Both the position numbers and the translations under genes were made by a program. The notes below the pieces were generated by a model. It made no database searches. It saw only the letters and a list, made by a program, of their open reading frames with translations, and was not told the origin of the DNA. Shown here in pieces: positions 4,533 to 22,717 of a stretch of DNA of 64,000 bases. Origin of the DNA: Clostridia bacterium (GTDB lineage: Bacteria > Bacillota > Clostridia > Oscillospirales > Acutalibacteraceae); assembly GCA_017522225.1 (NCBI GenBank), contig JAFWZR010000013.1, positions 124,001-188,000 on the forward strand, given 5' to 3'. The first letter of the stretch is position 1. The number at the start of each line of letters is the position of its first letter.

Positions 4533-6164
4533 TTATTCTTCGTTATCGTCATTGTCGTCTCCATCAACAACAAACTTACCTTTATGCGGAGCATCTATAA
4601 TATGATGTGCCTGTTCAAATGCAAACGCACCAATCTTCTGTACAGGTGCAAACGGCGGGAAGAATACATCAACATCCTTCTTGAGGTATTCTGCAAGTGC
4701 CGTTATGGGTTGTTTACTTGACGGATAGAAGGTTACCTCATCGTCTTCAAAAACAAACCTTATAATACGCTGACACACTGCCTGAAGCGGTCTTACATGA
4801 AGAGTGAGCTCGTTTTCATCCGTCCATGCTGCTGTTGCATTTGCGGTAAAGGGCATACCTGCAAGAGTCATCGGAGTCTTGCGTGCCTTACCGTCCATAC
4901 CGCAGACAATAGAATTATGCTCATCACCCTCATCCCATGTCATTGTACAGGTATCCTCATTGAATTCAAATACAACATTGGTGATACCGCCTGCCCTGTC
5001 GCCCGACATATATACAATCGGAATCGGAAGCATACTGACAGGAAAGCCTGCGGCGGAGAGAACAAGGTTCTTCTGGAACTTAATCATTCTGCCTTCTATC
5101 TGCTCCTCAAGCTCACTTCTCTGCATACACGGCAGATCATCGTCAAGGGCAGCGAGTGACGGCTTTTCTTCCGGTGTCTGTTCGGAGTCGTTTTCGATAA
5201 GGCATTTCGGGAAGTGGCGCCAGATGCAGTCGCGTGTTTTCTGTTCGTCAATCTCACCTGCCGTGAGAATTAAGCAGGCATCATAATCCTTAGCAACAAT
5301 TCCGAACTGTGAAAACATTCCGTCTGCACGGTAACCATTTGTTCCTGCGCATCGCCAGAAGCAATAGCCGTAGCCTGACTGTGAATCGGGTGTCTTATTA
5401 AAAGCAGAATTGTCCGCCTGCACCTTCTGTGACTTATGTACCCAATCTGCAGGAATTATCTGCTTACCGTTGAACATACCCTTCTGCTGATAGCAGAGTG
5501 TAAACTTTGCAACATCCTCGGTCTTGAGGAAAAGCCCCCATCCGCCTGCCTCGATACCGTCGATGTCACTCTCCCAGAACGGAATATCGATACCGAGAGG
5601 TTCAAACAAACGCGGAGTAAGATATTCGATAACGCTCATACCCGTAATGCGTGTAAGCATTGCGCAGAGCATATACTGATTCTCGCTGATATATTCCCAG
5701 TGTCCGTCACCGGGTGTGAATGACCACGGAGCATCAAAAAAATCTTTGATCCACTGATTTTTACCTTTGTCGGTAAAAACGCTTACACCCTTGCCCGACT
5801 GCATTGAAAGCAGATGATGAACCGAGAGCTTTTCAAGATTTGCATCAGGCTCATCCTTGCGGAACTCGGGGAAGATATCAATAAGTCTTGTGTCGGGTGT
5901 AATCAGACCTTCGCTGACGGCAAAGCCGACTGCTGCGGAGGTAAAGCTCTTGCTGACAGAATACATTGCGTGCGGAATGTCGGGAGAATACGGGTCCGCC
6001 CAGCTTTCAAACGCAACCTTTCCGTGACGCAGAATCATAAGACTGTGTACTTCAATGTTACTTTCTTTAAAATCTCTGATAAGCTCGGCAACCTCGCGTG
6101 AAGAAACACCGACCTGCTCAGGATAGTCAGCCCTTTCGAGGCTGATTTTTTTTATTTCTTTCAA
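4533..6164 (-). CDS. Serine hydrolase, beta-lactamase/esterase class C fold, with extra C-terminal domain
   Basis: The N-terminal 330 residues are a beta-lactamase-related domain: nucleophile motif S-V-S-K at about 69-72 (HAMYSVSKSFTSAAVG), a Tyr-x-Ser motif in HWEYISENQY, and the late GYGYCFW and FSQFGIVAKDYDACLILTAG strands. Such enzymes are esterases, peptidases or amidases; most are not beta-lactamases. About 200 further residues form an unrecognised beta-rich C-terminal domain. No signal peptide is seen, so it is probably cytosolic. I chose TTG 6164, 8 bases after GAGG; GTG 6173 would overlap that ribosome site. It is the middle gene of an operon with GDPD-like and YhhN-like genes, which suggests, without proving, a lipid ester substrate. 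Confidence 0.82.
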   Translation of the reverse strand: MKEIKKISLERADYPEQVGVSSREVAELIRDFKESNIEVHSLMILRHGKVAFESWADPYSPDIPHAMYSVSKSFTSAAVGFAVSEGLITPDTRLIDIFPEFRKDEPDANLEKLSVHHLLSMQSGKGVSVFTDKGKNQWIKDFFDAPWSFTPGDGHWEYISENQYMLCAMLTRITGMSVIEYLTPRLFEPLGIDIPFWESDIDGIEAGGWGLFLKTEDVAKFTLCYQQKGMFNGKQIIPADWVHKSQKVQADNSAFNKTPDSQSGYGYCFWRCAGTNGYRADGMFSQFGIVAKDYDACLILTAGEIDEQKTRDCIWRHFPKCLIENDSEQTPEEKPSLAALDDDLPCMQRSELEEQIEGRMIKFQKNLVLSAAGFPVSMLPIPIVYMSGDRAGGITNVVFEFNEDTCTMTWDEGDEHNSIVCGMDGKARKTPMTLAGMPFTANATAAWTDENELTLHVRPLQAVCQRIIRFVFEDDEVTFYPSSKQPITALAEYLKKDVDVFFPPFAPVQKIGAFAFEQAHHIIDAPHKGKFVVDGDDNDDNEE

Positions 6165-8678: not shown

Positions 8679-8708
8679 TGATTGAATAATGCAAAGGAGG
8701 ACTATCCC

Positions 8709-9830
8709 ATGCAAAACAGAAAGTTTGATAATCTCGGAATTGAGGCTTCCTTACTCGGTTTCGGTTGTATGCGTTTTCCGACTGTTGACGGAAAAATTGA
8801 CGAGAAAGAATCTGAGCGTTTGCTTGACCGTGCAATGCAGGCAGGCGTGACTTATTACGATACAGCTTATCCGTACCACGACGGCGAGAGCGAGCCTTTC
8901 GTTGGTAAGGCTCTTAAAAAATATGACAGATCGTCATTTTATCTTGCAACAAAACTGCCTATCTGGAAGCTTGATTCTATAGAGGATGTAGAAAGAATCT
9001 TTAACGATCAGCTGGAAAGACTTGGCGTTGACTATGTTGATTTCTACCTTCTTCACGCGGTTGATGCCGAAAAGTGGAAGACTATCCTTAACCTCGGCAT
9101 CCTTGACTATTGCGACAATCTTAAAAAGGAAGGAAAAATCCGCTATTTCGGTTTCTCTTTCCACGATGAATATGAGGCTTTCGAAGAAATCATTTCCTAC
9201 AGAAAATGGGATTTCGTTCAGCTTCAGCTCAACTACATTGACATTCGTGAGCAAGCAGGTCTCAGAGGTGTTGAGCTCTGCAACAAGCTCGGTGTGCCGA
9301 TCATCGTAATGGAGCCTGTCAAGGGCGGTACTCTTGCAAAGCTTCCTGATGAGGTTGAGGCAAAATTCAAGGCTGCTTATCCCGACGCATCCACCTCTTC
9401 CTGGGCAATGCGTTGGTGCGGTACTCTGCCCGGAGTAAAAGTAATCCTCAGCGGTATGAGTACAATGGAGCAGGTTGATGACAACCTTAAAACCTTCGGC
9501 AGCTTCAAGGAGCTTGACGAAAATGAAAAGGCTCTTGTTCAGGATGTTGCCGACACACTCAACAGCAGAATGAGAAACGGCTGTACGGACTGCCGTTATT
9601 GTATGCCCTGCCCCGCAGGTGTAAACATCCCTGCAAACTTTGACCGTTGGAACAAATATGCTGTTTACGGAAATGTCGAAAACGCAAAAGAGCGTTGGGC
9701 AAGCTTCAATGATGCAGAAAAGGCTCGCAACTGCATCGAATGCGGTGTTTGCGAAACAAAATGTCCGCAGAAAATTAGTATCCGTGCTGACCTTAAATCA
9801 CTTCAGAAAGAAATGGATGAGCTTAAATAA
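8709..9830 (+). CDS. Aldo/keto reductase with C-terminal [4Fe-4S] ferredoxin-like tail
   Basis: 373 residues. The first 280 form an aldo/keto reductase barrel with the catalytic set visible: Asp and Tyr in YYDTAYPYHDGE, Lys in LATKLP and His in LLHAVD. The tail carries two cysteine clusters, CTDCRYCMPCPAGV and CIECGVCETKCP, suited to bind two iron-sulfur clusters, so electrons may come from or go to ferredoxin rather than only NAD(P)H. This fused type is common in anaerobes, with unknown physiological substrates. A near-perfect AAAGGAGG lies 8 bases before ATG 8709. The ECF transporter gene starts on the base after its stop codon. Confidence 0.9.
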   Translation: MQNRKFDNLGIEASLLGFGCMRFPTVDGKIDEKESERLLDRAMQAGVTYYDTAYPYHDGESEPFVGKALKKYDRSSFYLATKLPIWKLDSIEDVERIFNDQLERLGVDYVDFYLLHAVDAEKWKTILNLGILDYCDNLKKEGKIRYFGFSFHDEYEAFEEIISYRKWDFVQLQLNYIDIREQAGLRGVELCNKLGVPIIVMEPVKGGTLAKLPDEVEAKFKAAYPDASTSSWAMRWCGTLPGVKVILSGMSTMEQVDDNLKTFGSFKELDENEKALVQDVADTLNSRMRNGCTDCRYCMPCPAGVNIPANFDRWNKYAVYGNVENAKERWASFNDAEKARNCIECGVCETKCPQKISIRADLKSLQKEMDELK

Positions 9831-12903: not shown

Positions 12904-12937
12904 AAAGAGTTGGTACAACTTTGTACCAACTCTTTTT
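12904..12937. terminator. Bidirectional terminator
   Basis: A 15-bp perfect inverted repeat (AAAGAGTTGGTACAA and its complement) with only two bases between arms, followed by TCTTTTTG on plus and TTTAATTTTTT on minus. It separates the acyl-CoA synthetase gene from the end of the glycyl radical operon. Confidence 0.9.
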
Positions 12938-12939
12938 GC

Positions 12940-13959
12940 TTACTTATAGCATTCAACGACCGTCATATCTGTGCCCGTGATTGCAAATTTTTCCTTGACT
13001 GCCTCGGGAATGAAGAAGTAGTCACCCTTTGTGATTTCTTTTTTGTAGCCGTCACCGACAATTGTGCCGCCACCCTCGGTTACAACATAAATACAAGCAC
13101 TCTTGTCGAGCGTGAAGCTCCCGCCGTTGAAGATAATCTTTCTTACCTTGAAGCTTTCTGTTATGCTCTCGTCGATAACTGACTGATAGTCAACTCCCGG
13201 TTCACTCTTAAGCGCTTTGCTTGAAAGGGGTACCGGGAAGGTTTTTTTCATGTCGAAGCATTCAAGTGCTGTCTTTTTATCAAGTCCGAGATACATCTCG
13301 TTGTCGGAAAGTCTGTATTCTCCGCACCAGCGTTCAGGCTGAATTGTAAAGTCTGTAGGCTCCTGTACCTCGAGTAAAAGGCAGCCTGCGCCGATTGCGT
13401 GAACCATCTTTGCGGGGATATAAATTATGTCACCTGCTTTTACAGGGAAGGATTCAAGTAGCTCCTCCATCGCGGTTGTGCTTGTTTCACTCTCTTCAAT
13501 AGCCTTCTCAAACTGCTCGAGTGATACGCCCTTTTTAAAGCCGTAAAAAATCTTTGCATCCGGTCTTGTTGCAAGAATTACCCAACTTTCCTCTTTACCG
13601 TAGCCTGAATTGAAGTGTTCCCTTGAAAAAGCCTTATCCGGGTGAGCCTGAACAGGCAATCTGATTGCACTGTCGAGGATTTTTGTAAGAATACCGATAT
13701 CCTCTCTGCTACCGATAAGCTCGTTCTTATATTCCTTAAGGGCATCGCTGAGGTAAAGGTCAACACCTTCAATTTTTGAAATGCCCTCGTATTCGTCTGT
13801 ACTGCCCTCGTTAAGAGCGTGAACTGCAGAAACTACCCATTCCTCGGGATAATTGCCGTCAGTTGAGTCGTCTGAAAAGAAATCTGCAAAAAGCTTACCG
13901 CCTGTATAAACACGGAAAACACGATTCTTTTCAAAAAATATCGGATAATCAAAAAACAT
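12940..13959 (-). CDS. manA: Mannose-6-phosphate isomerase, class I type
   Basis: Zinc-dependent cupin enzyme that interconverts mannose 6-phosphate and fructose 6-phosphate, or a related phosphosugar. The zinc-binding region is seen as PVQAHPDKAF and KEESWVIL, with the later His in MVHAIGAGCLLLEVQEPTDF. 339 residues, near the normal size of Firmicutes ManA. It is the last gene of a four-gene operon; its start lies 4 bases after the sugar kinase stop. Given that position its real substrate may be the product of the glycyl radical enzyme or kinase instead of mannose 6-phosphate. The family assignment is firm, the substrate is not. Confidence 0.87.
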   Translation of the reverse strand: MFFDYPIFFEKNRVFRVYTGGKLFADFFSDDSTDGNYPEEWVVSAVHALNEGSTDEYEGISKIEGVDLYLSDALKEYKNELIGSREDIGILTKILDSAIRLPVQAHPDKAFSREHFNSGYGKEESWVILATRPDAKIFYGFKKGVSLEQFEKAIEESETSTTAMEELLESFPVKAGDIIYIPAKMVHAIGAGCLLLEVQEPTDFTIQPERWCGEYRLSDNEMYLGLDKKTALECFDMKKTFPVPLSSKALKSEPGVDYQSVIDESITESFKVRKIIFNGGSFTLDKSACIYVVTEGGGTIVGDGYKKEITKGDYFFIPEAVKEKFAITGTDMTVVECYK

Positions 13960-13963
13960 AAAA

Positions 13964-15256
13964 TCACCTGTATATTATCAATTTCTGTGCTTCGTCAATA
14001 GTAGCTGCCTCAGCGACTGCGACAAGTGATGCAAGTGCCGCACCGTATGCAGCCTCCTCTTCATAACGCGGAATTTTAATCTCAGCGCCGAAGACCTCGG
14101 ATGCTACCTTCTGCAAGGCTTTATTTTTACGGATTCCGTTGCCCGAGCAAACAATCTGCCCTGTTTTTTTGCCTGTGTACATCAGACTTAACTCGTTTGC
14201 AATTGCATAAAGAATTGCAACGCTCATATCTCCTGCCGTAAAGTTATCCTGCGAAACATTTGTAAAAGCACCGCGGATTGTCGGGTCGGAGCGTGTACCG
14301 CAGAAACGGCTGTCCGCTTGAAGGTCTGTCTGAAGCTTACTTTCAAGCATCCGGTCAATCTGCGGATAGAGTGAGTCACACCTTTCGCCTGTTGCCATTT
14401 CAACAACCGACGCAAAGAAGCGTTCGAGCATTGAAAACGCTCTGCCGCCGCAAAGTGATGCACCGACAACAAGATAACGCTTGCCGTCATACGGACGCGA
14501 TTCGATATTTTCACCCGTAACGGGTTTGTCGTTAAGATAAGAAATCTGCGAGCCCGTACCGACATTAAGAAGCGGAGCATCAACACCTACAGAACCCATA
14601 AAGCTTGCCTGATTGTCTCCGATTGCGACACAGACCTTAATACCGTTCCACTCTCCGACAACATCAAAATCTGCCGTAACCTCGGGAAGCATACCGTTGT
14701 CGAGCGTGAATTTATTTTCAGTTATATCAAAACAACCGAAGCTTGCGGCATTTGTTATGTGCATAAGCGCAGTTTTTCTGCCCGTAAGCTTCATTGCGAG
14801 GTAGTCGCCGATTGTGCATACTCCTACTGCCGTTTCGGGCACGAGCAAATTTTCACGGTTATAAAAATCCGTCACAAGTCCGTAGCCTGCAAAGCTGCCG
14901 AGATACTGTGCATAAGTCTTGCCGTCTCTGTAAGGCAGATTTCCGCGTTCATCCTGCCAGATGTACAACGGACTGACTGCATTGCCGTCAGCATCGTAGT
15001 AGAGTATTCCGTGCATCTGATTTGAAATACCGATTGAGCTGACAGAAACATCGTTTGCGTTATCAAAAACAGATTTTATAACCTCAGAAACTTTTTCTTC
15101 AATCACCGCAACATCCTGAATTTTTTCCCAGCTGTAAGGTGATTTGATAAAAGAATCGTTGTTATGCGTTGCCGTGCAGATAATTCTGCCCGACTCTGAG
15201 TCCATCAGCACAGCACAGATACTTGTTGTGCCGATGTCTATACCGATTGAATACAT
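13964..15256 (-). CDS. FGGY-family carbohydrate kinase
   Basis: 430-residue sugar or polyol kinase with the actin-like ATPase fold. The first phosphate loop is IGIDIGTTSICAVL at the N-terminus; the adenine/phosphate region shows AIGDNQASFMGS with the likely catalytic-base Asp, and LNVGTGSQISYL. The closing segment NKALQKVASEVFGAEI is also typical. The pattern is closest to sedoheptulokinase-like members, but FGGY substrates range over xylulose, glycerol, rhamnulose and others and cannot be read off. GAGGAG precedes ATG. It lies 12 bases behind the glycyl radical enzyme and 4 bases ahead of manA, so it probably phosphorylates the substrate or product of that enzyme. Confidence 0.88.
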   Translation of the reverse strand: MYSIGIDIGTTSICAVLMDSESGRIICTATHNNDSFIKSPYSWEKIQDVAVIEEKVSEVIKSVFDNANDVSVSSIGISNQMHGILYYDADGNAVSPLYIWQDERGNLPYRDGKTYAQYLGSFAGYGLVTDFYNRENLLVPETAVGVCTIGDYLAMKLTGRKTALMHITNAASFGCFDITENKFTLDNGMLPEVTADFDVVGEWNGIKVCVAIGDNQASFMGSVGVDAPLLNVGTGSQISYLNDKPVTGENIESRPYDGKRYLVVGASLCGGRAFSMLERFFASVVEMATGERCDSLYPQIDRMLESKLQTDLQADSRFCGTRSDPTIRGAFTNVSQDNFTAGDMSVAILYAIANELSLMYTGKKTGQIVCSGNGIRKNKALQKVASEVFGAEIKIPRYEEEAAYGAALASLVAVAEAATIDEAQKLIIYR

Positions 15257-15268
15257 TTTCAGCTCTCC

Positions 15269-17596
15269 TCAGCAACCAAGATTAGATGACTTCGGATCAA
15301 GTCGCTTGATAATGTCCTGCTGAATTGCAGGTGACAAATCAAGGAAGTTAACGAATGTGCCGTGAATACGCATAATGTAAACTCCGCTCGGTGCGTACTT
15401 CTTCGGGTTTTCAAGCACCTTCTTAAGGATTTCTGCCGTTGTAACATTAACATAGAGGTAAAAGGGATCCACACCCTCGTTAAGAGGATTAAAGAAGAGC
15501 GGATTGATAATCTTATCTCTGAATTCAACACCCTTGCCCTCGTCCGAATCACTTGTGAAATATTTGGGATCAATACCGAGGTGTGAAGCGTAACCGCCGT
15601 TGAATTTGCAGAAGGGAAGCTTCATATTTGAAAGCATTCGGAAGCCAAGTCCGTTTTCTGCGCTGCCGTAAAGCGGGTCAACACCGTAGCCGAGCATTTC
15701 TCTTGACTTTCTGCCGTCAGGAGTTGCACCTACCCAGTAGCCGTAAAGAAGATGTGTTGACGGGCTGCTGAAGTCGGGACGGAAGCTGTTGCCGAGGTAA
15801 TTCTTTGCATCAGCAACGATATCTGCAACCCTTGAAGCAACCTCTGCTGCGTAAGCATCGACCTTTTCGATGTTGTTGCCGAATTTGTCAGCTGAAAGCA
15901 AGAAGTCCTGCAAGTCCTCATATCCGACAAAGTTTGCCTTGAGTGCATCAACGAGCTTGTCGGCATCCTCGGGACGCTCTGCAAGAAGCTTGTCAATTGC
16001 ACTGAAGGAGTCAGCAATCACGGATGTACCGTGGATAAGACAGCCGCTGCCGTTATACTTTGTGCCCTGTGCATTGAAATCGCGCATATCAATGCCGTTT
16101 TCAAGTCCGCCCATAAAGCAGGAAAGGAAAGGTACACGCTGAGTTGAAAGTGCAACGGATGCACCGTTAGCCGCCTGTGCCATTTCCGCAACAAAGCGTT
16201 CAACATTCTTGTAGAATTCTTCCTGAATATTTTCAAGCTTTGCGGCTTCCACCTCGGCAAGCTTTTCGCCTGTAACGGTTGAGATACCGCCTGTGAGTGT
16301 CATTTCAAGAATCTTCGGGAGGTTAAGCCAGCTGTTTGTTGTGTTGCCGTTATCCTTGCCCATAATAAGAGGCTCCTGACAGCCTGCAATTGAGATGTCG
16401 GGCAGGTCAACCTCGTCAACTCCGTTTGCACCGAGCACCTCAAAGAGTGAATCGTCATTGAACATTGACGGCGTAAGCACACCCGGTGTGAAGAAAAATC
16501 TGCCAAGCTCCTCATAAAGCTTCTGCGGTGTATTCCGATGAAGCTTGACCGAAAGAATCGGCTGAGGTAAGTTCATATCAAAATACGCATCAAGCATTGC
16601 ATATGATGTGTCGTTTGTAAGGTCGTTGCCGTCCTTGTCGCGTCCGCTGATGATAACATTCTGTGAAATAGCCCAGCTTCTGTCCGCAACGTTGAAGAAA
16701 ACAAGGAAATGCTTGAAAAGACCTGCAACCGTGTCGCGGTCAAGTCCGTTTCTGTACGGCTCAAAAATTCTGTCCGCATTGCCGACGGAGAAAGCAAACG
16801 GATTGGGAGTCTGCTCAAGGCACATCATCTGCCACAGAAGAAGGAAGGACTGCATTGCCTCGTACATATTCTCTGCACCGTTTTCGGGCACCTTACGAAG
16901 TGTTTTTATCATAAGCTCAAGCTCTGCCTTACGCTCGTCGGATGCCGCTGCAAGCTGACCTTCAGCAAGGTCGGCATATTTGTTGGCAAGTGCAATAACA
17001 CTTTCCAACGCGATTACAAAAGCCTTGTAGCCGTTGCCGTTCTTATCCTTTACAGAGTCAATCATTGAGCGAAGACCGTTCCGAACAGCATAACGGAAAT
17101 CCGGAATAAGGTGACCTGTTACCTGCTCAACAAAATAGATAACCTCTTTTGTGCTGTCCTCGCACTTTGCATAAGTTTCGCCAAGCTTTACGGCATATTC
17201 TGTTTTGCTGAATTCTGCCTTTGCTTTTTCTATACGCTCTGCAGTGAATTCTTCGTTCGGCTCAATGTCGCCGAAAACTGCGGCAGGGTCACAGTAACCG
17301 CTGAAGCCCTCAACCCTGAAGGAAGGATTGATAAGTGCATAGCTTCTGGCAAAGCCGTCGTCCTGTGTGCCTGCAAAAATCTGATTATCGTCAATCCAGA
17401 GGGGTACTATATCCACAAGGTCGCGGAGGATGAGTGCCTTTTTCACCTCTTCGGATTCATTCTTGTACTTTTCCTGTAAGCTGAGCTCTGCTTCCTTGGC
17501 AATAAACCAGCCGTCAAGACGCATCTTGGCGCGTTCATTTTTAAACAGTGCCTTTGCTTTTTTAGTTAATTTTTCGGGAGTGTAAATATTCTGCAT
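15269..17596 (-). CDS. Glycyl radical enzyme of unassigned substrate (PFL-like, dehydratase/lyase type)
   Basis: 775 residues with the glycyl radical enzyme architecture. The active-site loop is GCQEP with thiyl Cys406 and likely base Glu408; most dehydratase/lyase members have GCVEP, so Gln407 is a variant. VTGHLIPDFR near 159-168 matches the conserved His-Asp region. The C-terminal radical motif is MRIHGTF with Gly746, in place of the usual RVxGY. The sequence then runs DLSPAIQQDIIKR, as in the family, and ends in a short NLGC tail. Glu408 argues for radical dehydration or C-X lysis rather than pyruvate cleavage, which uses Cys-Cys. It is 13 bases behind its activase and ahead of a sugar kinase, which suggests a sugar or polyol derivative. 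AAAGGAG precedes ATG. Oxygen-sensitive, cytosolic. Confidence 0.9.
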   Translation of the reverse strand: MQNIYTPEKLTKKAKALFKNERAKMRLDGWFIAKEAELSLQEKYKNESEEVKKALILRDLVDIVPLWIDDNQIFAGTQDDGFARSYALINPSFRVEGFSGYCDPAAVFGDIEPNEEFTAERIEKAKAEFSKTEYAVKLGETYAKCEDSTKEVIYFVEQVTGHLIPDFRYAVRNGLRSMIDSVKDKNGNGYKAFVIALESVIALANKYADLAEGQLAAASDERKAELELMIKTLRKVPENGAENMYEAMQSFLLLWQMMCLEQTPNPFAFSVGNADRIFEPYRNGLDRDTVAGLFKHFLVFFNVADRSWAISQNVIISGRDKDGNDLTNDTSYAMLDAYFDMNLPQPILSVKLHRNTPQKLYEELGRFFFTPGVLTPSMFNDDSLFEVLGANGVDEVDLPDISIAGCQEPLIMGKDNGNTTNSWLNLPKILEMTLTGGISTVTGEKLAEVEAAKLENIQEEFYKNVERFVAEMAQAANGASVALSTQRVPFLSCFMGGLENGIDMRDFNAQGTKYNGSGCLIHGTSVIADSFSAIDKLLAERPEDADKLVDALKANFVGYEDLQDFLLSADKFGNNIEKVDAYAAEVASRVADIVADAKNYLGNSFRPDFSSPSTHLLYGYWVGATPDGRKSREMLGYGVDPLYGSAENGLGFRMLSNMKLPFCKFNGGYASHLGIDPKYFTSDSDEGKGVEFRDKIINPLFFNPLNEGVDPFYLYVNVTTAEILKKVLENPKKYAPSGVYIMRIHGTFVNFLDLSPAIQQDIIKRLDPKSSNLGC

Positions 17597-17609
17597 AACT
17601 GTATCTCCT

Positions 17610-18314
17610 TTAAGTTGTTACAACGGTCAGACCGTTGGCAACGAATAAATTTTTAAAATTCTGAACTGTTTCATCCGACACAAAGCCGTTTTCAATCTCG
17701 TATTCCGCTGTCCATTTATCCTTGCCGAATTCGTGGTAAGGCAAAAATTCAAATACTGCGTTCGATGTATCAAACCGTGTGAAGAAATCCGCAAATCCCT
17801 GCGGGGTATCGTTAACATTATGTATAAGAGGGATTCTGATGTGAATCTGTCTGCCTGAGGTGAATATTTTTTCAAGATTCCGTATAACCGACTCATTGCC
17901 GACTCCTATCCATTTTTTATGAATATCGGAATCAAAGTGCTTGAAATCGGCTATAAGGTAATCGACAAAGGCTGCTACCTCCATCAGATGCTCACTTGAA
18001 GCGTTGGTTTCAATCGCAGTTGAAATACCTGCTTCCTGAAGCTTTTTAAGTAACTCTATAAGCTCAGTATACTGCAGCGTACATTCACCGCCCGTAAAAG
18101 TGACGCCGCCACCGTCAAAAAACATCATCCTGCTGCGTTTCGCCTCGTCAAACAGCTCGTCAACGGTGTAGTTTCCGGCCTCGTTTTCTGTCACGGACAT
18201 ACTCTCGGGATTTGAACACCATTTACAGCGGAAGTTGCATCCCTGCAGATGATATACAAGTCTGTTGCCGGGTCCGTCCTGTGAATAATTGAAGCCCTTC
18301 TGCAAAATTTTCAT
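17610..18314 (-). CDS. Glycyl radical enzyme activating enzyme (radical SAM)
   Basis: 234-residue radical SAM protein that installs the glycyl radical on its partner enzyme. The cluster motif is C26-x3-C30-x2-C33 (QGCNFRCKWCSNPES), the SAM-binding GGE motif is in VTFTGGECTLQ, and the N-terminus DGPGNRLVYHLQG is typical of this family. It lacks the ferredoxin-like insert with two extra clusters found in most activases of dehydratase-type glycyl radical enzymes, so it resembles pyruvate formate-lyase activase in size. First gene of the operon, with AAGGGG 7 bases before ATG and a promoter with a palindromic operator. Confidence 0.92.
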   Translation of the reverse strand: MKILQKGFNYSQDGPGNRLVYHLQGCNFRCKWCSNPESMSVTENEAGNYTVDELFDEAKRSRMMFFDGGGVTFTGGECTLQYTELIELLKKLQEAGISTAIETNASSEHLMEVAAFVDYLIADFKHFDSDIHKKWIGVGNESVIRNLEKIFTSGRQIHIRIPLIHNVNDTPQGFADFFTRFDTSNAVFEFLPYHEFGKDKWTAEYEIENGFVSDETVQNFKNLFVANGLTVVTT

Positions 18315-18353: not shown

Positions 18354-18382
18354 ATTGTATACTTTGACAAACCATTTGTCAA
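18354..18382 (-). promoter_or_regulatory. Promoter of the glycyl radical enzyme operon
   Basis: On the minus strand TTGACA, 17 bases, TACAAT, 40 bases before the activase start. The -35 is a perfect consensus and lies within the palindrome at 18364-18382. Confidence 0.8.
18364..18382. promoter_or_regulatory. Palindromic operator over the glycyl radical operon promoter
   Basis: Perfect 8-bp arms TTGACAAA and TTTGTCAA separated by CCA. It covers the -35 and most of the spacer, so a bound repressor would block RNA polymerase. No regulator gene is adjacent. Confidence 0.65.
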
Positions 18383-18496: not shown

Positions 18497-19432
18497 GTGA
18501 AAAAGATTTTTATTGACGGTAAAGCAGGTACCACGGGACTGCGCATATACGAAAGATTAAGCGAGAGAAAAGACATCGAGCTGATGCTCATCTCCGACGA
18601 ATTGCGTAAGGATGTGAAAGCAAGAAGAGAGATGCTCAACTCGTGTGATATCGCTTTTCTCTGTCTGCCTGATGCAGCAGCGATGGAGTCGGTTTCACTT
18701 ATCGAAAATCCCGATGTAAAGGTTCTTGACACATCAACGGCACACCGTACAAATCCCGCATGGGCTTACGGCTTTCCCGAGCTTTCCGATGCACACAGGC
18801 AGAAGATTATCGGCTCAAACAGAATTGCCGTGCCGGGTTGCCACGCAAGCGGCTTTATCGCTCTTGTTTATCCGCTTATTGAAAAGGGTGTTATCTCCCC
18901 CGACGCACTTCTTGCCTGTCATTCGCTTACAGGCTACAGCGGCGGCGGAAACAAAATGATCGGTGAGTATGAGGCTGACGAGGTCGACAAGACATACGGC
19001 TCTCCCCGTCAGTACGGTCTCGCACAGAGCCATAAGCATCTGCCTGAAATGACAGCAATTACAGGCATAAACAACGCTCCCGCATTCACTCCGATTGTTG
19101 CGGACTACTACAGCGGTATGCTTGTAACCGTTCCTATCTTCAAATCGCAGATAAACGGTGCAAATTTAGATGAAATTCGTAAAATTTATAGTGCAAAATA
19201 CCACGGACCTGTGGTACAATATAAGTCTGACATCGGTGAGGGCGGATTTATCTGCTCCAACAAGCTTTCCTTTAACGACGGTATGGAAATTTTCGTTGAG
19301 GGTAACGAAGACAGAATTATGCTGATGGCACGTTACGACAATCTCGGAAAGGGTGCTTCGGGCGCAGCTATTCAGAATATGAATATCATTCTCGGTGTCG
19401 ATGAAACTACAGGACTTAATTTTGAGGTGTAA
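18497..19432 (+). CDS. argC: N-acetyl-gamma-glutamyl-phosphate reductase, type 2
   Basis: Third step of arginine synthesis: NADPH-dependent reduction of N-acetylglutamyl phosphate to the semialdehyde. At 311 residues it is the short type 2 form. The N-terminal dinucleotide loop is FIDGKAGTTGLRIYERL, the catalytic Cys lies in AVPGCHASGFIAL, and the substrate-binding region follows in HSLTGYSGGGNKM. The start is GTG at 18497, 6 bases after GGGTG, with no better codon nearby. First gene of the argCJBD operon under ArgR control; the argJ start follows its stop by 3 bases. Confidence 0.93.
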   Translation: MKKIFIDGKAGTTGLRIYERLSERKDIELMLISDELRKDVKARREMLNSCDIAFLCLPDAAAMESVSLIENPDVKVLDTSTAHRTNPAWAYGFPELSDAHRQKIIGSNRIAVPGCHASGFIALVYPLIEKGVISPDALLACHSLTGYSGGGNKMIGEYEADEVDKTYGSPRQYGLAQSHKHLPEMTAITGINNAPAFTPIVADYYSGMLVTVPIFKSQINGANLDEIRKIYSAKYHGPVVQYKSDIGEGGFICSNKLSFNDGMEIFVEGNEDRIMLMARYDNLGKGASGAAIQNMNIILGVDETTGLNFEV

Positions 19433-19435
19433 ACG

Positions 19436-20647
19436 ATGAAAGAAATTATGGGCGGTATCTGTGCCGCAAAGGGATTCAAGGCAAACGGTATACATTGCGG
19501 AATCAGAAAGAACAAGACAAAAAGAGACCTCTCTCTTATCACAAGTGAAGTCAAGGCTGCAGCTGCAGCTGTATATACAACAAACCTTGTTAAGGGTGCT
19601 CCCCTTACAGTTACAAAGTCCCACATTGCTGATGGCTATGCTCAGGCAGTTATCTGCAACAGCGGTAACGCAAACACCTGTAACGCAAACGGTATTGAAA
19701 TTGCAGAGCAGATGAGTGAGCTTGTCGAAAAGGCAACAGGCATCAGCAAGAACGATGTTGTTATCGCGTCAACGGGCGTTATCGGTCAGGTGCTTGACAT
19801 CACACCGATTGCAAACGGTATGGACGAGCTTGCAGCAGGTCTCGGTGACCACAGTGACTTTGCCGCTGAGGGTATTATGACAACCGACACAGTCAAAAAG
19901 GAAATTGCAATCAGCTTTGACATCGGCGGTGTCGAGTGTAAAATCGGCGGTATCGCTAAAGGAAGCGGTATGATTCATCCGAATCTGGCAACAATGCTTG
20001 TTTTTATCACAACTGACGTTGCTATCGCTCCCGAACTTCTGCAGAAGGCACTCAGCACAGACATCGCATCAACCTTCAATATGGTAAGCGTTGACGGTGA
20101 CACATCAACTAACGATATGGTAACAGTGCTTGCAAACGGTATGGCAGGCAATGTGATTATCGATAAAGAGGACGAGAATTTTGCTGAGTTCTGTAAGGCT
20201 CTCAACAGTGTTACAGTTTACCTTTGCAGAAAAATTGCCGGTGACGGTGAGGGCGCAACAAAGCTCCTCGAGTGTAAGGTAACAGGTGCTGCAGATGAAA
20301 AGACTGCAAAAACTGTTGCAAAGTCAGTTATCTGCTCTTCACTTCTTAAGGCTGCCATGTTCGGTGCTGACGCTAACTGGGGACGCGTTCTTTGTGCTAT
20401 CGGTTACAGCGGAGCAGACGTTGATGTTAACAAAATCGACGTAAGCTTTGAATCGGCAAAGGGCAGACTTGACGTGTGCGTAAACGGTGCAGGCATTGAG
20501 TTCTCTGAAGAGAAGGCAAAGGAAATCCTGCTCGAAAAAGAAATAGACATCCTCGTTGAGCTTAACTCAGGTAATGCGGATGCAACCGCTTGGGGCTGCG
20601 ACCTTACTTATGATTATGTTAAAATCAACGGCGATTACAGAACTTAA
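19436..20647 (+). CDS. argJ: Glutamate N-acetyltransferase / ornithine acetyltransferase
   Basis: Transfers the acetyl group from N-acetylornithine to glutamate, recycling it; bifunctional members also use acetyl-CoA. The precursor of 403 residues cleaves itself between Ala and Thr in the motif KGSGMIHPNLATMLVF, making alpha and beta chains with the Thr as nucleophile. SGNANTCNANG near the N-terminus and GADANWGRVLCAIGYSG in the beta chain are also conserved. Since no argA or argE is present here, the cyclic pathway is used. Second gene of the arg operon. Confidence 0.95.
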   Translation: MKEIMGGICAAKGFKANGIHCGIRKNKTKRDLSLITSEVKAAAAAVYTTNLVKGAPLTVTKSHIADGYAQAVICNSGNANTCNANGIEIAEQMSELVEKATGISKNDVVIASTGVIGQVLDITPIANGMDELAAGLGDHSDFAAEGIMTTDTVKKEIAISFDIGGVECKIGGIAKGSGMIHPNLATMLVFITTDVAIAPELLQKALSTDIASTFNMVSVDGDTSTNDMVTVLANGMAGNVIIDKEDENFAEFCKALNSVTVYLCRKIAGDGEGATKLLECKVTGAADEKTAKTVAKSVICSSLLKAAMFGADANWGRVLCAIGYSGADVDVNKIDVSFESAKGRLDVCVNGAGIEFSEEKAKEILLEKEIDILVELNSGNADATAWGCDLTYDYVKINGDYRT

Positions 20648-20659
20648 GAGGTAACCGTA

Positions 20660-21550
20660 ATGAGAATTTCAAATCCTGACAGAGCACACGTGCTGACACA
20701 CGCTCTGCCCTACATACAGAAATATGCAAACAAAATACTCGTTGTCAAATACGGCGGCAACGCTATGATTAACGAGGACCTCAAGCAGTCCGTAATGAGC
20801 GACATCATTCTTCTTTCCACAGTCGGAATCAAGGTTGTGCTTGTTCACGGCGGCGGTCCCGAAATCACAGATATGCTTGCAAAAATCGGCAAGGAAACAA
20901 AGTTCGTAAACGGACTTCGTGTTACAGATAAGGAAACTGCAGATGTTGTACAGATGGTGCTTGCAGGTAAAATCAACAAGAGTCTCGTAAGCCTTATTCA
21001 GTCAAAGGGCGGCAAGGCAATCGGTCTCAGCGGTGCTGACGGTCATATGATTATCGCAAAGCCCCGTTGTGCTGAGCTTGGTTTTGTAGGTGATATTGAG
21101 AAGGTTGATGTTACGCCAATTCTTGACACACTTTCAATGGGATACATCCCCGTTGTTTCAACAGTCGGCTGTGATAAGGACGGCAATGTTTACAACATCA
21201 ATGCAGACACCGTTGCAGCTAAAATTGCAGGCGAGCTTAAGGCAGAGAGCCTTATTTCAATGACTGATATCGAGGGTATTCTCCGCGATAAGGATGACCC
21301 GTCTTCACTCATTTCAAGAATCTTTATCGAAGATGCACCCAAGCTTACAGAAGAAGGCATTATTTCGGGCGGTATGATTCCGAAGGTGCAGTGCTGTGTT
21401 GATGCTATCAACTGGGGTGTGCGCAAGGTTTTTGTTATTGACGGCAGAGTTAAGCACTCAATCATCATCGAAATCCTTACTGACGAAGGTATCGGCACGA
21501 TGTTCGTCAACGGTGAAGAATACAAGAAAAGACACCCGGAGGCAAAATAA
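20660..21550 (+). CDS. argB: Acetylglutamate kinase
   Basis: Phosphorylates N-acetylglutamate with ATP, usually the arginine-regulated step in organisms with the cyclic pathway. The phosphate-binding Lys is in VVKYGGNAM, the substrate glycine loop in VLVHGGGPEI, and the C-terminal KVQCCVDAINWGVRKVFVIDG is typical. 296 residues with an N-terminal helix region (SNPDRAHVLTHALPYIQKY) like that of the arginine-sensitive hexameric enzymes, so feedback inhibition is likely (inference). Its stop abuts the argD ATG. Confidence 0.95.
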   Translation: MRISNPDRAHVLTHALPYIQKYANKILVVKYGGNAMINEDLKQSVMSDIILLSTVGIKVVLVHGGGPEITDMLAKIGKETKFVNGLRVTDKETADVVQMVLAGKINKSLVSLIQSKGGKAIGLSGADGHMIIAKPRCAELGFVGDIEKVDVTPILDTLSMGYIPVVSTVGCDKDGNVYNINADTVAAKIAGELKAESLISMTDIEGILRDKDDPSSLISRIFIEDAPKLTEEGIISGGMIPKVQCCVDAINWGVRKVFVIDGRVKHSIIIEILTDEGIGTMFVNGEEYKKRHPEAK

Positions 21551-22717
21551 ATGAGCATTACAGAAATTGATAAACAATATATAGCCAACACATATGCACG
21601 TTTCCCCGTTGAGCTTGTCAGCGGCAAGGGTGCAATCCTCAAGGACTCTGACGGCAAGGAATACATCGACCTCGGTGCCGGTATTGCCGTTAACGTGTTC
21701 GGTGTTGCAGACGATGAATGGCTTGAGGCTGTTACAAAACAGCTCAACACTCTTACACATACATCAAACCTTTATTTCTCTGAGCCTTGCTCAACACTTG
21801 CAAAGATGCTCTGTGAGAGAACAGGTATGAAGAAGGCTTTCTTCGGCAACAGCGGTGCTGAGGCTAACGAGTGCGCAATCAAGGTTGCACGCCGTTACGC
21901 TTTTGACAAGTACGGTGATGAGAGCCACTCAACAATAATCACACTTAAAAACAGCTTCCACGGCAGAACAATCGCCACTCTTACAGCAACCGGTCAGGAC
22001 GGTTATCACACACACTTCGGTCCGTTTGTTGAGGGCTTTGTTTACGCTGAAGCAAACAATCTTGACGATGTAAAGCGTCTTGCAGAAGAAAACAACTGCG
22101 TTGCCGTTATGATGGAGCTCGTTCAGGGCGAGGGCGGTGTATGCAAGCTTGACGAGGATTTTGTCAAGGGAGTCAAGGCTCTTGCTGACGAAAAAGAGAT
22201 GCTTATCATCATCGACGAGGTGCAGACAGGTAACGGCAGAACAGGCAGTCTCTACGCTTTCCAGCAGTACGGACTTATGCCCGATATCGTTACAACCGCA
22301 AAGGGCATCGGCGGCGGTCTTCCGATCGGTATTGCAATGCTTGGCGAAAAGGTGCAGGATGTTCTTGTGCCCGGCTCACACGGTACAACCTTTGGCGGAA
22401 ACCCTGTTTGCTGTGCAGGTGCCTGCAATATTCTTTCACGAATTGACGACGAGCTTCTCAGCGAGGTCAAGGCAAAGTCACAGTATATTTTTGATGAGCT
22501 CTCAGATGCAAAGGGCGTCAAGAGTGTCAGCGGACTCGGCCTTATGATCGGTGTCGAAACCGAAAAGAGTGCAAAGGACATCGTTAACGCTTGTCTTGAG
22601 AAGGGTGTGCTTGTGCTTACCGCAAAAACTAAGGTAAGACTTCTTCCTCCGCTCAACATCGGCTGGGATGACCTTAAGAAAGCAATTGCAATCCTTAAGG
22701 AAGCAATCGCTGAATAA
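21551..22717 (+). CDS. argD: Acetylornithine aminotransferase
   Basis: PLP enzyme that aminates N-acetylglutamate semialdehyde using glutamate. The PLP lysine is in TTAKGIGGGLPIG, the cofactor-binding Asp in IIDEVQTGNGRTG, and the phosphate-binding SGAEANECAIKVAR is intact. 388 residues, normal for the class III aminotransferase family. It starts on the base after the argB stop, with CCGGAGG in the argB tail as ribosome site. Last gene of the operon; argF, argG and argH must lie elsewhere. A terminator follows. Confidence 0.95.
   Translation: MSITEIDKQYIANTYARFPVELVSGKGAILKDSDGKEYIDLGAGIAVNVFGVADDEWLEAVTKQLNTLTHTSNLYFSEPCSTLAKMLCERTGMKKAFFGNSGAEANECAIKVARRYAFDKYGDESHSTIITLKNSFHGRTIATLTATGQDGYHTHFGPFVEGFVYAEANNLDDVKRLAEENNCVAVMMELVQGEGGVCKLDEDFVKGVKALADEKEMLIIIDEVQTGNGRTGSLYAFQQYGLMPDIVTTAKGIGGGLPIGIAMLGEKVQDVLVPGSHGTTFGGNPVCCAGACNILSRIDDELLSEVKAKSQYIFDELSDAKGVKSVSGLGLMIGVETEKSAKDIVNACLEKGVLVLTAKTKVRLLPPLNIGWDDLKKAIAILKEAIAE

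Follow-up and report, generated by a model that had tools for sequence, protein, structure and literature searches.

A stretch of 64,000 nucleotides from a Clostridia bacterium of the Acutalibacteraceae (GenBank assembly GCA_017522225.1, contig JAFWZR010000013.1, positions 124,001 to 188,000; the whole stretch is hereafter called the window) encodes a glycyl radical enzyme (GRE) of 775 residues (15269..17596, minus strand) for which sequence comparison gives good support as a distinct clade, tied to an FGGY sugar kinase and characterized by an unusual glycyl loop. The gene is one of four minus-strand open reading frames (ORFs), which code for a radical S-adenosylmethionine (SAM) activase (17610..18314), the GRE, the FGGY kinase (13964..15256), and a ManA-type isomerase (12940..13959) and are separated by 13, 12, and 4 bases, exactly as a sequence-only reading of the window had described them. 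We favor, at a probability of about 0.38, a catabolic operon in which the GRE would act as C-O lyase on an unphosphorylated compound of the manno/fructo series and its ketose product would be phosphorylated by the kinase.

The traits of the GRE superfamily are all present, namely a domain like that of pyruvate formate-lyase (PFL; PF02901, E value 4.6e-98), the catalytic Cys406, a C-terminal loop around Gly746, and an adjacent radical SAM activase. The enzyme nevertheless scores under the cut-off of every NCBIfam GRE model that it matches. With the nearest subfamily, TIGR01774 (PFL2/glycerol dehydratase), it reaches 237.4 bits versus a cut-off of 678.2, and the values are 179 of 1000 bits for HpsG, 174.8 of 1100 for the hydroxyproline dehydratase HypD, 172.5 of 1109 for PRK09983, which we take to be the model of Escherichia coli PflD, 165 of 1000 for HpfG, and 145.5 of 1050 for the choline trimethylamine-lyase CutC. 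The model of PFL itself is matched with 68 of 994 bits, and a single Cys is found in the motif GCQEP, not two adjacent ones. In two quick maximum-likelihood trees, with 40 comparator rows in the first and 35 in the second (five long rows removed; one of 20 fetched comparator regions, L204, yielded no usable ORF), 14 representatives of the family form one branch with a support of 100 in the SH-like approximate likelihood ratio test and a length of 2.1-2.5, apart from glycerol dehydratase, PflD, YbiW, HypD, and CutC in both trees; the deep placement of this branch is unsure, as the program issued a long-branch warning in both cases. Propanediol dehydratase, isethionate lyase, and the sulfopropanediol enzymes were compared with the GRE by score only, outside the trees, and propanediol dehydratase (5i2a) gives 136 bits by sequence and 219 bits by profile, both lower than glycerol dehydratase. 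Neither scores nor trees group the enzyme with those acting on choline, glycerol, or anhydroglucitol, a grouping that the sequence-only reading had named as speaking against it, and the unassigned chemistry of dehydratase or lyase type proposed there gains support from these scores and from the GCQEP motif of all relatives. We found no publication on this clade, which is weak evidence of absence since most subscription journals lie outside the literature covered.

Cys406 (codon 16379..16381), the presumed thiyl radical cysteine, and Glu408 (16373..16375), the presumed general base, are both part of GCQEP, whereas Gly746 (15359..15361), the presumed site of the glycyl radical, lies in the atypical loop RIHGTF, preceded by Met; alignment bears out these positions, which had first been read from the letters alone. 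His162 (17111..17113), within QVTGH, aligns with His164 of glycerol dehydratase. All four codons are on the minus strand and were computed from the ORF coordinates. The three motifs are kept in all 72 distinct full-length relatives (101 distinct ORFs were found, of which 29 shorter than 740 residues were excluded), and therefore they are not errors of a single assembly. A single Cys within Cys-x-Glu, the hallmark of eliminase (dehydratase/lyase) GREs, is thus present throughout as GCQEP. In contrast, the usual GRE loop RVxG[YFW], which is common though not strict, is replaced by RIHGTF in 72 of 72, the full loop reading [MV]RIHGTFVNFLDLSP, and a three-residue insertion immediately precedes it in the alignment. 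All 39 readable comparator loops (from 40 rows, two of them identical) have Ala, Ser, Gly, or Cys before the glycine and Tyr, Phe, or Trp after it, and we know of no earlier loop in which the radical glycine stands between His and Thr in this order.

In the alignment of 40 family members, Ser311, Asn418, Thr419, Thr420, and Trp423 are invariant and align with positions of CutC, HypD, and glycerol dehydratase that we assume to have pocket roles there. Cys102, Cys519, and His522 are invariant as well; among 21 comparators, the columns of the two Cys residues hold Cys only in PFL, and that of His522 holds His in none. The column of His162 holds His in 11 comparators, Asp in six (all CutC), Glu in three, and Arg in one (PFL), and glycerol dehydratase, PflD, YbiW, and three HypD, comparators that cleave C-O bonds, all share this His. 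The combination of His162 with Cys-x-Glu fits C-O cleavage of a polyhydroxylated substrate, without proving it, and judged by these residues the GRE is likely to be a C-O lyase.

Homologs of at least 60% identity occur in 19 of 150 genomes of the same GTDB family, its own included, the next matches listed reaching at most 34%. In a 394-genome sample of the order, 10 genomes (again including its own) possess the GRE at E values up to 1e-200, and with the same limit a 398-genome sample of the phylum contains it only in the window itself. A scan of genome contigs identified 49 GRE loci at 58-95% identity. Two of these come from Blautia isolates, and the other 47 have record titles that designate metagenome-assembled genomes, many from the gut of goat, sheep, cattle, deer, or horse.

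Partner genes were counted by tblastn in the retrieved loci numbered from L013 on, without those of E. coli (loci and genomes carry our working numbers, L and G). The GRE is held by 109 loci, 76 of them distinct, and 62 of these include no less than 1 kb of upstream and 3.5 kb of downstream sequence and were used for the counts, which removed 47 rows. An activase is encoded within 400 bases upstream of the GRE in 60 of these 62 loci (exceptions L046 and L049), an FGGY kinase within 1.8 kb downstream in 59 (exceptions L031, L083, and L148), and ManA within 3.5 kb downstream in 39. The kinase is thus close to an obligatory partner, second only to the activase, and ManA is a frequent, not obligatory one, so that of the kinase and phosphosugar isomerase that had been noticed beside the GRE the former holds nearly everywhere and the latter in part of the loci. 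All four genes, whose co-occurrence elsewhere had been suggested as a check, are found together in 39 of the 62, and their arrangement is far more than chance; the neighborhood is thus conserved elsewhere, contrary to the second outcome that had been named as refuting. Gene orders and surroundings differ: ManA precedes the FGGY kinase in L070, L072, and L087, and an α-mannosidase of glycoside hydrolase family 38 (GH38) sits between the FGGY kinase and ManA in L146. Such varied order argues for functional linkage and not for frozen synteny.

The FGGY kinase of the window (430 residues, domains FGGY_N and FGGY_C) has the motifs QMHG and GDNQ, invariant in 29 aligned relatives, which we take to resemble those of xylulokinases. 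Homologs of the kinase are also encoded in seven genomes without a GRE of the family (G028, G049, G132, G538, G673, G736, and G826), those of G538, G673, G736, and G826 in the phylum sample at 38-48% identity. In G049 (L143) the GRE-free kinase follows a GH32 protein with all three catalytic motifs (WMNDPN, WRDP, and ECP), and in G538 it lies with a monosaccharide-type ATP-binding cassette (ABC) transporter. Because the kinase occurs without the GRE, its substrate looks like the product of the GRE, not like a dedicated precursor; probably it is a more general, ketohexose-like compound that the GRE would supply or mimic. A second FGGY-like kinase of about 502 residues follows the first kinase, or a fructose-6-phosphate aldolase (FSA), in L043, L044, and L055; that of L043, the only one submitted to a family search, exceeds the xylulokinase cut-off of TIGR01312.

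The accessory genes point to a mannose/fructose theme, and a link to a sugar and a hexose phosphate, as had been proposed from the sequence, is supported as likely. GH38 α-mannosidase is encoded near the GRE in 8 of the 62 loci. L031 has the arrangement activase-GRE-GH38 without kinase, and in the near relatives L017 and L056 GH38 lies between ManA and an acyl-CoA ligase (Pfam search on the protein of L017); as none is present at this place in the window or in L013-L016, it seems to be an optional extra. GH32 is part of the GRE operon in one of 62 loci (L148). In the Blautia loci L045 and L060, the operon continues with a monosaccharide-type ABC importer, a YihS-type isomerase, and an aldose 1-epimerase (assigned by Pfam and PDB searches for L045 and by similarity for L060). 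The best solved relatives of the L045 isomerase are YihS isomerases, with the sulfoquinovose isomerase chain 7ag4 among the matches. Enzymes of the YihS type interconvert mannose, fructose, and glucose, according to PMC7762179.

In the favored reading, for which we infer the reaction type, the order of GRE before kinase, the substrate series, and the roles of the isomerases, the short radical SAM activase, with a role deduced from its family, would generate the radical on Gly746, from where it would pass to Cys406, which would then abstract a hydrogen bound to one of the carbinol carbons in the substrate. Glu408 would remove the proton of the carbinol hydroxyl and His162 would protonate the leaving oxygen, so that the neighboring C-O bond would break and a ketone would form; a polyol would thereby be dehydrated, or a cyclic ether opened. 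The substrate would most likely be an unphosphorylated six-carbon compound of the D-manno or D-fructo series, for example a hexitol or a 1,5-anhydrohexitol, and in some hosts it might be freed from α-mannosides or other glycosides. The ketose formed by the GRE would be phosphorylated by the FGGY kinase, and ManA, or the YihS-type isomerase in the two Blautia, would link accompanying mannose and fructose to fructose 6-phosphate.

Several observations weigh against this proposal. GH38 and GH32 are confined to just 8 and one of the 62 loci, respectively, several of the GH38 loci being close relatives, and the Pfam-GH32 protein after the kinase of L145 (G132), which was not counted, is without the NDPN motif and does not match the patterns used for the other two motifs, though its sequence contains ARDP and PEC. 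The FSA/transaldolase family (PF00923) is found in none of 11 related GRE-bearing genomes that are 95-99% complete (as a control, the search detects the family in 10 of 14 known genomes) nor in the window's own incomplete genome, listed as 69% complete, and FSA is encoded near the GRE in just one of 62 loci (L044, Blautia schinkii). A 1-deoxyketose phosphate is not an expected substrate of ManA, and consequently a product of this kind does not explain the presence of the isomerase gene. In addition, two or three family-specific invariant residues, Arg282, Arg606, and perhaps Arg306, could serve to bind a substrate with a negative charge, such as a phosphorylated one. Among the 21 comparators, Arg is present in none at the column of Arg282, in four at that of Arg606, and in none at that of Arg306, the last column being unsure since another alignment places a Lys of YbiW and glycerol dehydratase opposite to it.

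These arginines, as possible ligands of a phosphate, lead to the most probable of the alternatives, in which the kinase acts first. The FGGY kinase would phosphorylate a hexitol or anhydrohexitol (or mannose or fructose), and the GRE would act on the 6-phosphate in a third, phosphotransferase system (PTS)-free pathway of the YbiW/PflD kind. We consider this order unlikely: neither tree places the GRE with YbiW or PflD, FSA/transaldolase was found in none of the 11 GRE genomes, and we know of no FGGY kinases that act on ring polyols. In its favor, Blautia schinkii (L044) has GRE, kinase, and FSA together, in E. coli fsaA is located near ybiW with only ybiY between them, and YbiW and PflD act on 1,5-anhydrohexitol 6-phosphates, as summarized in PMC12441222. 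The suggestion that the GRE might belong to the clade acting on 1,5-anhydroglucitol or anhydromannitol 6-phosphate is not borne out, since the profile scores are low, since in both trees YbiW and PflD group with other GREs, away from this family, and since FSA/transaldolase was found in none of the 11 genomes; we keep these enzymes as mechanistic relatives. On account of the 11 genomes, and despite the FSA of Blautia schinkii, an FSA-dependent 1-deoxyfructose route is rejected as the general route in Oscillospirales. PTS enzyme I was not found in the window's incomplete genome either, and with both FSA and PTS enzyme I not found, the anhydrohexitol pathway cannot be transferred unchanged to this clade, at any rate not within the sampled Oscillospirales.

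In a further alternative, which we hold to be improbable, the sugar is the leaving group: C-O cleavage in the non-sugar part of an α-mannoside or fructoside, such as a glycosyl-glycerol or glycosyl-glycerate, would supply the kinase and ManA with mannose or fructose. This would accommodate ManA, GH38, GH32, and the YihS-type isomerase without FSA, and the released hexose could be used by ordinary enzymes. However, some of the same operons carry glycosidases able to do this job by hydrolysis, and the sole reductase seen to recur in the neighbor clusters outside the Lachnospiraceae-type loci is the aldo/keto reductase at 8682-9830 of the window, which occurs in 7 near-relative loci as a separate unit on the opposite strand. 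Very improbable is a radical aldose-ketose isomerase that would abstract the C2 hydrogen of a hexopyranose, open the C1-O5 bond, and return the hydrogen to C1, leading from mannose to fructose and, after phosphorylation, to fructose 6-phosphate. The bond changes would be the same as those of the PflD ring opening with a hydroxyl on C1, and the idea would tie together mannosidase, kinase with GH32 context, and fructose 6-phosphate, but non-radical isomerases achieve the same cheaply, two Blautia operons already hold one of the YihS type, ManA would be redundant, and we know of no precedent. The least credible candidate is a C-S lyase acting on a sulfosugar (sulfoquinovose or sulfofructose), for although YihS-like and mutarotase-like genes flank two Blautia operons, with the sulfoquinovose isomerase chain 7ag4 among the YihS family matches and an aldose 1-epimerase following, the sulfoquinovosidase family GH31 is absent from the 66 distinct neighbor proteins scanned with Pfam (a part of all neighbors), GH38 and GH32 are among the glycosidases that were found, the GRE family retains its leaving-group histidine, and a putative TauE-like gene of 11 loci, read from the sequence without a search, lies several genes off in a neighborhood shared by those loci.

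A bolder reading, which we think doubtful, is that a GRE with a non-RVxGY loop acts directly on a free sugar of the hexose series, for example by radical pyranose opening of a mannose derivative. If this were true, strict gut anaerobes would use radical chemistry to channel mannosides into glycolysis, with no involvement of PTS, FSA, or an anhydrosugar phosphate. Time and again, the assignment of a new GRE clade has brought to light an anaerobic reaction that had not been suspected. The present clade is compact, strongly conserved, and kinase-linked, and judging from record titles many Clostridia from the guts of ruminants and horses carry it, as do Blautia, so that the compound it acts on is probably plentiful there. 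As RIHGTF breaks the pattern of 39 comparator loops, it offers a test case for the loop features that activation really needs, and the function is directly testable in a named strain, Blautia schinkii DSM 10518 (L044), which carries the GRE.

With regard to expression, the four genes seem to be transcribed as a single unit, because a promoter match lies 5' of the activase and a terminator-like hairpin 3' of ManA. The former (18354..18382, minus strand, i.e., 18382-18354) is a sigma-70-type consensus match, TTGACA-17-TACAAT, with 11 of 12 positions, situated 40-68 bases upstream of the activase; taken together, promoter matches are barely more numerous than in shuffled sequence (11 versus 8.2). 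The hairpin (12904..12935, minus strand), directly 3' of ManA, has a 14-pair stem followed by a T tract. Purine-rich tracts resembling ribosome-binding sites precede the starts of activase, GRE, and FGGY kinase.

The activase of the window has 234 residues with the CX3CX2C motif (CNFRCKWC) at residue 26, belongs to the Radical_SAM family, and represents the short form, which is that of the window's group and lacks the additional insert with Cys residues seen in longer GRE activases. As the Lachnospiraceae-type activases of L044 and L047 have 290 residues and contain such an insert, the GRE clade spans both activase sizes. L072 encodes a second radical SAM activase-like protein (5025-5858, minus strand; 277 residues, 31% identity to the window activase) right after the FGGY kinase. 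In L046, L048, and L049 an aldo/keto reductase is encoded immediately upstream of the GRE, preceded in L046 by a zinc alcohol dehydrogenase-like gene.

On one side the operon is flanked by divergent genes resembling those of arginine biosynthesis (argC-, argJ-, argB-, and argD-like; 18497-22717, plus strand; read from the sequence without a family search) and on the other, again by reading, by a convergent acyl-CoA ligase-like gene. In 10 of 48 loci, an argC-like relative is found no more than 6 kb upstream of the GRE. The aldo/keto reductase at 8682-9830 (plus strand) has a ferredoxin-like tail and reaches 74 of 550 bits with the methylglyoxal reductase model, and in 7 of 48 loci a relative of this reductase is encoded in the vicinity of the GRE. 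A flavin reductase/rubrerythrin/rubredoxin-like protein is encoded after ManA in seven loci (L020-L024, L027, and L041; Pfam search on L022) and might protect the radical enzyme from oxygen. Proteins after ManA of about 815 residues (L081:2937-5387 and L160:5667-8111, both minus strand) and of 225 residues (L085 and L155) gave no match in Pfam, nor did that of L081 in PDB. Other neighbors vary by group and include biotin ligase-like, MatE, FtsK, FeoB, Mur ligase, LytR, tRNA synthetase, and Tex proteins, and single loci that we have not fitted to our reading have a GH51-type arabinofuranosidase C-terminal domain (L079), a rhamnosidase (L031), or weak GH42 or GH2 matches near the GRE (L047 and L084). 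A further PFL-like gene of the window's genome is incomplete and located where a contig ends (G000:C34:2-490).

Compared with known sugar-phosphate enzymes, the ManA-type protein (339 residues, MPI cupin domain) resembles class I mannose-6-phosphate isomerases, its PMI type I match falling just below the Pfam cut-off and its TIGR00218 score at 90.4 bits versus an equivalog cut-off of 116.2. His106, Glu124, and His187, which we take to be the His/Glu/His metal site of that class, are invariant in 21 aligned relatives. The metal-site residues of Bacillus subtilis ManA (1qwr) are aligned and kept in the window protein, which differs in having PTDFTIQPE in place of an Arg-containing segment. The FGGY kinase shares FGGY_N, FGGY_C, QMHG, and GDNQ with XylB, gluconokinase, and glycerol kinase, but it is shorter and far below their equivalog cut-offs (for example, 89 versus 380 bits for XylB).

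Among GREs, the best solved relative of the window enzyme is the B12-independent glycerol dehydratase (1r8w/1r9d; 187 bits by sequence and 282 bits by profile). Both have Cys-x-Glu and the equivalent of His164, whereas their glycyl loops differ and His281, Ser282, Tyr339, Asp447, and Tyr640 of glycerol dehydratase, in our assumed numbering of its pocket positions, correspond to Phe267, Ala268, Ser311, Thr420, and Ser610 of the window enzyme. HypD and CutC are GRE eliminases with a GCVE motif, to be compared with GCQEP of the window GRE, and each forms its own supported clade; the C-N lyase CutC has Asp at the leaving-group position, where the window enzyme has His162. E. coli YbiW and PflD resemble the window enzyme in Cys-x-Glu, in the leaving-group His, and in that their substrates are derived from sugars; in contrast, they have an RVAGYS loop and no FGGY kinase alongside. 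The E. coli genes ybiW and fsaA have just ybiY between them, and FSA is likewise encoded near the GRE in one locus here (L044); FSA, which presumably is the next enzyme of the E. coli route, would cleave 1-deoxyfructose 6-phosphate. According to PMC12441222, which summarizes Ma et al. 2024 (J Am Chem Soc 146:26187), YbiW and PflD cleave 1,5-anhydroglucitol 6-phosphate and 1,5-anhydromannitol 6-phosphate to 1-deoxyfructose 6-phosphate after uptake by the PTS, a mode of uptake that sets the described E. coli system apart from that of the window.

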